From positions 867,001 to 931,000 of the forward strand of contig NZ_CP036295.1 in the NCBI RefSeq assembly GCF_004801255.1: a stretch of 64,000 bases of DNA, read 5' to 3'. Under the pieces are notes generated by a model. It had not been told where the DNA came from and made no database searches. It was given only the letters and a program-made list of their open reading frames with translations. Origin of the DNA: Desulfovibrio desulfuricans. Its GTDB lineage: Bacteria > Desulfobacterota > Desulfovibrionia > Desulfovibrionales > Desulfovibrionaceae. The translations under genes and the position numbers were made by a program. Shown piece after piece: positions 3,636-60,631 of this stretch (position 1 is its first letter; each line of letters starts with the position of its first letter).

Positions 3636-5393
3636 CTAGTGGGCGCGCATCTGCGTGATAAGGCCTGAAAGATCGTTGGCCTGTGCCGTCAGGTCTTCCA
3701 CAGCTTCTGCGGCCGCGCGCATCGCGGAGGCTGTTTGTCGGGACATATCGTGAATCTGGGCAATGACGCTTGCGACCTGATCGCTGGCGGCGGACTGTTG
3801 CTCGCTGGCTGTGGCAATGGCGTTGACCTGGTCTGCCGTGCTCTCGACCGTGGTTACAATATCCGCCAGCGCAGCGCCGGACTGGTTGGCGTAGGTGTTG
3901 GCCTCTTCAATCTGCCGCGCGGCCCTGTCCACAGATTCCATGCTTTGGGTTGCGCTTGACTGGATGGCCTCAATGGCATTGGCCACGTCGTGGGTGGAGG
4001 CCATGGTTTTTTCCGCCAGTTTGCGCACCTCGTCGGCCACCACGGCAAAGCCCCGCCCGGCTTCACCCGCGCGGGCGGCCTCAATGGCGGCGTTGAGCGC
4101 CAGCAGGTTGGTCTGGTCGGCAATGTCGGAGATAACGCCCATGATGCGGTTGATGTTTTGCGTCTGCTCGTGCAGCTGGGCCATATCGGCCTTGAGCTCC
4201 AGCGAGACGGCATGCACCTCGTCAATACTGTGCAGCGAGCGTTTGACGATTTTCGCGCCGTTTTCAGCTTTGGCGCGGGTGTCGGTGGAGGCCTGCGACG
4301 CTACTGACGCGTTGCGGGCTACATCCTGCACTGTGGCGTTCATCTGCTGCATGGCGGCCCCGGCTTCCGCCAGCTTGTCCGTGGTGTGCTGCGAGCTTTT
4401 GTCCGACTGCTCGATCTGCGCGGCCAGCCGGGTCGTTGCCGCGTTCACCACCTGCGCCACATCCTGCAGGCTGGCGGCAGCCGCGCGCATGGCCGTGGTC
4501 CGGTCCTGGGCCTCGACCCCGGCCTGTTCCGCCTTACGCAGGGCCTCCTCGGCGCGCTTTGCGCTTTGCCGGGCGTTTTCCGATTCCTGCCGGGTTTTGG
4601 CCATATTTTCTTTCAGCGTCTGGGCCATGGAAACCATGTCGGCGTAAACACCAGTTTTGGGGCCGCCGTCGTCAATGTCATAGTCGCCGCTGGCGACACG
4701 GCGGGCGATAACCGCCAGCTCGCCGGGGTCTTTGCCCAGTTGGCGTCCCACAGAGCGGGTAAGCGCCCAGGTGATGCAGATGCTGATGATAACGGCTGCC
4801 AGGGTGACGGCAATGGACATGTTGCTGGTTTTTTGGCCCGCATCCGCAGCGCTTTGCGCGGCAGCCTTGCTGCCGGTGACGTTTATGTGCACCACCTGGC
4901 CGTAAGTGTCGCCGAGCTGCTGAAAAACAGGGCGATATTTTTTGTCGTAGGCCACGTTGGCCACGCCGCGCCGGCCGTCCAGCACGCCCTTGATGATGCC
5001 CTCGCGCGCCGTGCTCTCCTGCGCGGAGAGGTCGGCAATGCGGCCCATGAGTTCTTTGCCCTCGGGGGTCTCCATGCCGGGGGTGGCGCTGCGCAGCTGC
5101 ATGTAGGCCGCGTGGTCGCGCTGGATGGAATCCATGGAATCCTGAAGATTCTTTTCGTACTTGCGGATTTCTTCCGCATAATTTTGCGACATGATTGACG
5201 CAAGGTCTGCGCGGAGGGAATTGAGCCGCACATTCATCGACTGAATGGCAATCACGGACGGCAGCCACGCCTCGTCAATCTCGCGCACCTTGCCGTTCAT
5301 TTCGCCCACATTGCGGATGGTAATGGCGGAAGACACCAGAATGACCGCAATAAGGCAGCCGAAGGAGAGCACAAGTTTTGCGCCAAGTTTCAT
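3636..5393 (-). CDS. Methyl-accepting chemotaxis protein
   Basis: A 585-residue chemoreceptor starting [20 protein letters not shown], chosen over longer reading frames because GGAGG lies about 9 nt upstream and the frame then begins with the membrane anchor. The order is an N-terminal helix, a four-helix-bundle sensor domain with a second helix near residue 200, a HAMP region ([22 protein letters not shown]), then the methyl-accepting coiled coil with the conserved hairpin tip ([20 protein letters not shown]). It differs from the 1649 receptor mainly in the periplasmic domain, so the two probably report different ligands through the same kinase complex. Confidence 0.95.
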
Positions 5394-14322: not shown

Positions 14323-14398
14323 GGGGAAGTAGCTCAGCTGGGAGAGCATCGCCTTCGCAAGGCGGGGGTCGAGGGTTCAAATCCCTTCTTCTCCACCA
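14323..14398 (+). tRNA. tRNA-Ala (anticodon CGC)
   Basis: A 76-nt cloverleaf: acceptor GGGGAAG / CTTCTCC, D-arm GCTC...GAGC, anticodon stem TCGCC / GGCGG around loop TTCGCAA giving anticodon CGC, T-arm with TTCAAAT, and an encoded CCA end. It reads alanine codon GCG. Confidence 0.97.
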
Positions 14399-14405
14399 CA
14401 ATATC

Positions 14406-14442
14406 AAGGGGTTACGGGTTATTCCGTGACCCCTTAATTTTT
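14406..14442 (+). terminator. tRNA-Ala terminator
   Basis: AAGGGGTTACGG (14406-14417) pairs with CCGTGACCCCTT (14424-14435) with one wobble, followed by a T-rich tail. Confidence 0.85.
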
Positions 14443-14468: not shown

Positions 14469-14497
14469 GGCTCTACACCAAAGACGGGGACAAGCCC
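14469..14497. repeat. Solitary ISL3-type terminal inverted repeat
   Basis: The sequence begins GGCTCTACACCAAAG and continues through a G-run to CAAGCC. It matches, with one base difference over 28, the sequence repeated at 60432-60488 in the same position relative to the tRNA there. GGCTCT is typical of ISL3-family insertion sequence ends. No transposase remains beside this copy, so it is probably a relic end. Confidence 0.6.
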
Positions 14498-14597
14498 CCC
14501 TGGCAGGCAGTGCCGATTTTTTTGCGCCGGGCGCGGTCGTATCGCATGAGGGCAGGGTAATCTTGCCATCCTGATAGTGCGGTGGCATACTTACGGG

Positions 14598-60270: not shown

Positions 60271-60381
60271 TTTTGGCGTAGAGCCCGCTTTCATCGGGAA
60301 ATGAAGTTGATTCAACGGCGTGCGTATGGCTTTCGCAACTTCGAAAATTACCGATTGCGAGTGCGCGTTTTGTGCTGCTGA
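60271..60381 (+). pseudogene. Remnant of an ISL3-family transposase, C-terminal end
   Basis: An open frame of 36 codons containing RRAYGFRNFENYRLRV and ending in TGA at 60381. This is the well-known C-terminal signature of ISL3-type transposases. Nothing before the C-terminal tail survives: the frame is bounded upstream by the stop codon of the neighbouring gene. Fifty bases further on lie the terminal repeats at 60432-60488, as expected for the right end of such an element. Confidence 0.72.
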
Positions 60382-60431
60382 AATGGCTGGGGAATCGTTC
60401 AGAAACCTGTCGGGAAAACTGCCCGTTGAAG

Positions 60432-60488
60432 GGGCTTGCCCCCGTCTTTGGTGTAGACCCGGCTTGCCCCCGTCTTTGGTGTAGAGCC
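60432..60488. mobile_element. Right end of an ISL3-type element, terminal repeat duplicated in tandem
   Basis: Two copies, 60432-60460 and 60461-60488, of a sequence that reads GGCTCTACACCAAAG then a G-run and CAAGCC on the minus strand (the first copy begins GGGTCT). The outer end faces tRNA-Thr. The same sequence occurs at 14469 past tRNA-Ala. The element's left part is gone. Confidence 0.65.
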
Positions 60489-60510: not shown

Positions 60511-60546
60511 AAAAAAAGGACTTGCGGAGTATTCCGTAAGTCCTTT
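60511..60546 (-). terminator. tRNA-Thr terminator
   Basis: On the minus strand AAAGGACTTACGGA pairs with TCCGCAAGTCCTTT, followed by a T-run. Confidence 0.92.
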
Positions 60547-60555
60547 AATTCTTTG

Positions 60556-60631
60556 TGGAGCCCTTGATCAGGATTGAACTGATGACCTCATCCTTACCAA
60601 GGATGCACTCTACCGACTGAGCTACAAGGGC
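60556..60631 (-). tRNA. tRNA-Thr (anticodon GGT)
   Basis: A 76-nt cloverleaf: acceptor GCCCTTG / CAAGGGC, D-arm GCTC...GAGT, anticodon stem CATCC / GGATG around TTGGTAA giving GGT, T-arm with TTCAATC, and an encoded CCA. It reads threonine ACC and ACU codons. Confidence 0.97.

Follow-up and report, generated by a model that had tools for sequence, protein, structure and literature searches.

The stretch of DNA considered here (hereafter the window) is 64,000 nucleotides long and corresponds to positions 867001-931000 of the single-contig, 3.25-Mb genome of Desulfovibrio desulfuricans. In it, a tRNA-Ala (CGC) gene at 14323-14398 on the forward strand, which is recovered by both ARAGORN and Rfam, is followed by a GC hairpin with a T run that reads as its terminator (14406-14442, forward) and then by a lone right-hand tip of an ISL3 element that faces the tRNA gene (14469-14498, forward). 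The 15-mer GGCTCTACACCAAAG matches this tip without mismatch at 14469-14483, the 30 bp as a whole are 93% identical to our right-end query, and beyond this bare tip the sequence is decayed. On the reverse strand, a tRNA-Thr (GGT) gene at 60556-60631, likewise recovered by ARAGORN and Rfam, is followed by a terminator hairpin with a T run, again by sequence reading (60513-60549, reverse), and then by the 28-bp outer tip stub of an older copy (60461-60488, reverse), which is recognized by its sequence and by an exact match to the same 15-mer at 60474-60488. Adjoining it is the right end of a further copy (60341-60460, reverse), which is 92% identical to the 120-bp right-end query and has its tip at 60460, where the 15-mer is found with one mismatch (GGGTCT...; 60446-60460, reverse). 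The C-terminal remnant of the transposase (60289-60363, forward; containing RRAYGFRNFENYRLRV) scores 25.2 bits against PF01610 (DDE_Tnp_ISL3; cut-off 23). Directly before this remnant, a degenerate tip-like stretch with 2 mismatches of 15 (60271-60285, reverse) has the direction of both other tips by tRNA-Thr and is possibly an older stub.

All three window tips have one common inward direction relative to their own tRNA, and the distance from tip to tRNA 3' end is 71 bp for tRNA-Ala and 68 bp for the outer tip at tRNA-Thr, both tips lying past the terminator hairpins. By itself the 15-mer is weak as evidence, because with up to three mismatches it has 5 matches in the window as against 1.6 expected from shuffles. 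An initial annotation, made from the sequence alone, had reported repeats past both tRNA terminators in the same orientation to the tRNA, a transposase C-terminus beside the second of them and an origin in decayed ISL3-family elements. The first of these observations holds up by both the 15-mer and the right-end query, the second by the Pfam match of the remnant, and the third by the transposase domain match together with the bare tip and the remnant: the repeats are the right-hand tips of a decayed ISL3-family insertion sequence. The arrangement at tRNA-Thr suggests that the inner copy inserted into the right end of the older one, which would have left the 28-bp outer stub at 60461-60488.

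ISL3-family elements are characterized by inverted tips starting with GGCTCT or GGGTCT and by an 8-bp target duplication. The transposase of the present element belongs to this family by both PF01610 (224.9 bits against a cut-off of 23) and NCBIfam NF033550 (278 against 180). The Zn_ribbon_ISL3 domain falls just below the cut-off of 25.5 in P0001 (22.7 bits) and exceeds it in a relative from the Verrucomicrobiota genome G304 (39.5), and both of these proteins show a weak match to an N-terminal HTH domain. The clade to which they belong has the C-terminal signature GITEGFHRKMKLIQRRAYGFRNFENYRLRV, which the initial annotation had seen in part. The nearest solved fold is that of the ISCth4 transposase (E 3e-07, TM about 0.4), and the sequence profile of the transposase found no relative in the PDB; neither result has a bearing on targeting.

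Full copies elsewhere in the genome, for which the initial annotation had proposed a search, do exist; they carry an ISL3 transposase and likewise lie beside tRNAs. The D. desulfuricans genome has PF01610 matches at nine places, with both whole and broken copies of the element, whose inverted tips read GGCTCTACCTCAAAG on the left and GGSTCTACACCAAAG on the right. A full copy at 2309939-2311313 spans 1375 bp, has a single transposase ORF coding for 417 amino acids and ends in the left tip GGCTCTACCTCAAAGACGGGG and the right tip GGSTCTACACCAAAGACGGGG. Genome-wide, a 21-base tip with up to three mismatches has 27 matches (reversed control: 0), which group by distance into 15 clusters. Twelve of these lie past the 3' end of an intact tRNA gene, at a distance of no more than about 340 bp, the tRNAs being Phe, Asn, Gly, Ala, Thr, Arg+Thr (a cluster flanked by two convergent tRNAs), Met, Pro, Glu, Leu, Leu and Lys; a thirteenth (1910179) adjoins a tRNA-Glu 3' half, and the remaining two (605274 and 2042162) have no tRNA. 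Under a strict 320-bp rule 11 of the 15 clusters qualify; 100,000 random sets gave 0.06 on average and never more than 3. Around the 27 tips, no tRNA gene within 500 bp has its 5' end towards the tip, and none of the nine matches to the control family rve in this genome lies within 500 bp of a tRNA. Stubs of 16 bp occur at two further loci (1166625 and 1991099). The intact copy (L047, 3912-5342; genome positions 2309911-2311341) has an exact 28-bp direct repeat on both sides, of the same length as the tip stub at 60461-60488.

Across the genus the element is sparse. The tip motif (up to two mismatches) occurs in 8 of 79 genomes, so that the tip is not a universally conserved tRNA-linked motif, a reading that the initial annotation had named as fatal to its proposal. 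A transposase match at E<=1e-60 is found in 3 of the 79, and five genomes with the tip motif (G001, G004, G014, G015 and G023) have no such match and retain ends or decayed remains only, which in several of them are still tRNA-linked. Of a subset of 26 tips from seven further members of the genus, 14 are followed on the outer side, at 57-126 bp, by a tRNA 3' end. The other 12 have none on the outer side: for two a tRNA lies on the inner side (L276 has, in addition, a tRNA 5' end 320 bp outside), and ten have neither, two of the ten with under 160 bp of flank.

A search of genome contigs with the transposase yielded 79 loci with relatives of the element from several bacterial phyla, 20 of them from one genome (G079); 7 have too little flank and 72 could be judged. 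Of the latter, 55 adjoin the 3' end of a tRNA or tmRNA gene, or a half of one, tandem arrays included. In 43 the transposase end is faced, at up to 500 bp, by the 3' end of an intact tRNA or tmRNA gene; at eight the neighbor is a 3' half of such a gene (L104, L105, L123, L125, L126, L130, L156 and L163), the half in L156 having its first 21 bases in common with the tmRNA 3' end of L113; in three the locus is the outer of two tandem copies by a tRNA or tmRNA (L132, L137 and L138); and one (L146) has a tRNA at its left side only. A tRNA 5' end facing the element within 500 bp was found at none of the 55, and by orientation 43 loci face right as against 3 that face left. The targets are of 18 kinds, namely 17 tRNA isotypes and tmRNA. 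Seventeen loci have no tRNA, half or tandem in reach (L089, L091, L093, L095, L106, L118, L124, L135, L141, L148, L150, L155, L157, L158, L159, L161 and L165), a class that includes L161, with a tRNA 572 bp away on the left, and L095, L118 and L158, which have no second copy between.

Puniceicoccaceae Marseille-Q1082 (G079) illustrates the density that the association can reach: with 46 tRNA matches and 30 ISL3 places (20 of which are among the 79 relatives), it has ISL3 matches up to 600 bp from the 3' end at 17 of the 46 tRNA genes, and at the 5' end of none. In one Puniceicoccaceae genome, L148 and L150 share a flank of about 43 bp (5178-5220; AACTTAATGCAAATCTGCC...), and no tRNA was found at either. 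In two Legionella genomes, the right end of the element abuts an integrase-like reading frame (L091 and L106, both without a tRNA). Four records of Legionella adelaidensis NCTC12735 that are labelled plasmids (L215-L218) contain tRNA and housekeeping-type genes and look like chromosome pieces filed as circular plasmids; in two of the four, moreover, tRNAs lie immediately beyond the transposase.

The relatives bear the marks of transposition. Direct duplications of 8 bp (at least 7 of 8 bases) bound 23 of 68 copies, compared with 0.4 on average and at most 3 in any of 200 shuffles; the duplications have an A+T content of 73% and do not consist of tRNA sequence, and the element itself measures 1202-1348 bp. 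The 8-bp duplication that the initial annotation had suggested looking for is thus clear in relatives, but in the D. desulfuricans genome it was not found, the sole copy with both flanks readable being bounded by the 28-bp direct repeat. These duplications, with most copies lying at intact tRNAs, indicate that the elements arrived singly by transposition. This bears directly on the possibility that the element merely rides in genomic islands which themselves integrate into tRNA genes. Island ends are usually marked by a tRNA 3' half, and 12 loci have such a tRNA or tmRNA half by the element: the eight relatives named above, three in G304 (L252, L258 and L260) and one in the D. desulfuricans genome (L043). 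In addition, L260 has, on our reading of the frame, an integrase-like start beyond the half, and two copies abut integrase-like genes. Yet most copies are at intact tRNAs, 23 of 68 are bounded by duplications of their own, and other ISL3 elements, which would be expected to ride along too, are absent there. We therefore regard transport by islands as highly improbable.

The distance from the outermost right tip to the tRNA 3' end ranges from 6 to 222 bp, with a median of 59.5 (48 of 50 measured loci), and this breadth argues against one rigid recognition complex. At 13 of the 48 loci two or three tip motifs stand in a row, as with the 28-bp stub at 60461-60488; some of them may be chance occurrences given the simplicity of the motif. 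At two loci of G079 (L136 and L151) the later copy entered the resident one at an identical site, 37 bp in. Placement past terminators, as the initial annotation had described it, is right for the window, but is not the rule elsewhere, as in 12 of the 48 cases no more than 15 bp separate the tip from the tRNA 3' end.

The preference can be assigned to a particular lineage of ISL3 transposases. In a tree of 85 rows, all 38 tRNA-labelled rows fall within one clade of 49 rows (SH-aLRT 99), which also contains 6 rows labelled 'none' and 5 undetermined rows, and no tRNA-labelled row lies outside it; a first tree of 65 rows gave the same split with a support of 100. Both trees carry older labels, under which 'tRNA' is shown for L161 and for every merged cluster that contains a labelled member, and row L189, whose group includes L195 and of whose four copies one lies at a tRNA, was set to 'none'. 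Rows under 270-290 aa were omitted and near-copies merged at 92% identity; this affects L181-L184, L186, L187, L191, L192, L197/L198, L212 and L213 in the set from the phylum of the window genome, and 9 non-clade loci of the Verrucomicrobiota set were omitted from the 85-row tree for length. Among other ISL3 loci of the phylum of the window genome (46, of which 41 were judged), one (L195) has a tRNA 3' end within 500 bp; another, L183, has a tRNA in its left flank with the 5' end facing. From the Verrucomicrobiota, 49 ISL3 loci were analyzed: the 11 in the clade are all at tRNAs or halves, and of the 38 outside it, 35 of which were judged, one (L237) has a tRNA. Combined, the other ISL3 lineages have a tRNA 3' end beside them at 2 of 76 judged loci, a set that includes some loci too short for the tree because short rows were left out there. 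This ISL3 clade, then, has a lineage-, side- and orientation-specific association with tRNA and tmRNA 3' ends.

Such a pattern could in principle also arise if insertion were random and only those copies past tRNA genes survived, because they are harmless there, which is close to the initial proposal that the elements inserted where they do no harm. The tRNA 3' flanks are indeed short intergenic stretches with terminators, the window copies have decayed past just such terminators, and the tail-to-tail orientation could have been selected against read-through into the transposase gene. However, harmlessness is insufficient as an explanation: in G304 all nine copies of the clade element are at tRNAs (6 intact, which lie 49-104 bp past the stop codon, and 3 3' halves), whereas none of the five copies of a different ISL3 element is near a tRNA. 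Since both elements experience the same host selection in one genome, the preference belongs to the transposase lineage. The low figures for other ISL3 lineages (2 of 76) and for rve in the D. desulfuricans genome (0 of 9) point the same way, and recent copies, with perfect 8-bp duplications, are placed like the rest. Survival of randomly inserted copies is accordingly a very unlikely account.

With a probability of roughly 0.86, we hold that the window repeats are the ends of decayed ISL3 insertion sequences from a clade that targets the 3' flanks of tRNA genes. The element would be 1.2-1.4 kb long, with one transposase gene, no separate targeting gene and the usual ISL3 8-bp duplication, and its insertion would be steered to the region some 5-200 bp past a tRNA or tmRNA gene, with the right end towards the tRNA 3' end. 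The recognized part is probably the 3' half that every tRNA has in common with tmRNA, that is, the T-arm and the acceptor strand; we infer this because many isotypes including tmRNA are hit, because the scanned clade loci without an intact tRNA showed no rRNA, RNase P RNA or SRP RNA gene in its place, and because of the tRNA halves, which are weak evidence that a half suffices since islands may enter a tRNA after insertion. Recognition might be by the transposase itself or via a host protein bound at the tRNA 3' half. A resident copy would itself receive new ones in its outer right end, giving rise to the lone and tandem tip stubs, and the broad distance window would fit a loosely tethered complex like that of TRE3 more than a rigid ruler of the Tn7 type. 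A more specific version is that a single-gene insertion sequence recognizes the tRNA 3' half directly through its transposase, at any tRNA or tmRNA and with no accessory selector, as the DNA-transposon counterpart, in several phyla, of the box-B-guided TRE3; this we advance tentatively, at slightly under even odds.

The guiding cue might alternatively be transcription or its termination, with RNA polymerase pausing or the terminator hairpin past strongly expressed stable-RNA genes drawing the element rather than any tRNA sequence. Two Puniceicoccaceae loci (L131 and L153), where the tip directly follows the T run of a terminator, and the window tips, which lie past the terminators of both tRNAs, are what this would predict. 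Nevertheless, Rfam found no rRNA, RNase P RNA or SRP RNA gene in 20 scanned clade loci without an intact nearby tRNA; the tmRNA gene is hit, which has only its tRNA-like ends in common; many tips are 6-15 bp from the tRNA, with no room for a terminator between; and other ISL3 elements are not drawn to these sites. We consider guidance by transcription unlikely, while allowing it a real share of the probability, and continue to favor steering by the tRNA 3' half.

Two further ideas were tried and dropped. First, the tip might mimic the T-arm: the Puniceicoccaceae right tip GGGTCAACACC fits the T-arm consensus with one mismatch, a likeness that accounts for four of the six T-arm hits with one mismatch among 18 no-tRNA loci. 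The D. desulfuricans and other clade tips fit less, the end of the non-tRNA ISL3 element of G304 (GGTTCATGACC) fits equally, and the idea was dropped because it does not separate the two kinds in G304. Second, the right end might serve as a replacement terminator, but its 60-nt folds are mostly unremarkable (z about -2.1 to +2.0; 60 mononucleotide shuffles each).

If steering towards tRNA 3' flanks is correct, a transposase encoded by one gene, whose conserved target is nearly universal, would make the question of how an insertion sequence finds tRNA genes open to simple experiments; it would account for solitary GGCTCT tips downstream of tRNA genes in further genomes, and it could offer a compact enzyme for DNA insertion at safe, conserved sites. 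The targeting of tRNA genes is best known from yeast and slime mould retrotransposons and is a classic solution for gene-dense genomes. A search of the open-access literature, with subscription papers and preprints mostly outside its scope, returned no report of tRNA-targeted ISL3 elements, and a large survey of insertion-sequence neighborhoods discusses ISL3, with the word 'tRNA' absent from its main text (PMC9208149).

Finally, the clade finds parallels in several known systems. With the rest of the ISL3 family it has in common the DDE_Tnp_ISL3 transposase, the GGCTCT/GGGTCT tips and the 8-bp target duplications, and it differs in inserting downstream of tRNA and tmRNA genes, where the other lineages are rarely found. 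Among eukaryotes, retrotransposons of Dictyostelium target tRNA genes (PMC5006619; PMC5911963), and TRE3 inserts 40-150 bp downstream of them, downstream of an internal or external box B (PMC5911963). The two share a broad insertion window downstream of tRNA genes of many isotypes; however, TRE3 is a eukaryotic non-LTR retrotransposon and lies in the orientation of the tRNA, whereas the present element is a bacterial DDE DNA transposon without pol III factors, whose transposase gene stands tail to tail with the tRNA. In the literature cited, tRNA targeting in bacteria is the work of Tn7-like elements with several genes or of islands that carry an integrase. The Tn7-like and CRISPR-associated transposons whose attachment sites are tRNA genes are likewise bacterial DDE transposons, and use TnsD/TniQ or guide RNAs (PMC11406308). 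They are multi-gene systems, unlike the single gene seen here with its many tRNA isotypes. Islands mobilized by tyrosine integrases also take tRNA 3' ends as landing places, whereas the element described here has neither an integrase nor an attachment-site core and, with its 8-bp duplication in the flank, leaves the tRNA whole.
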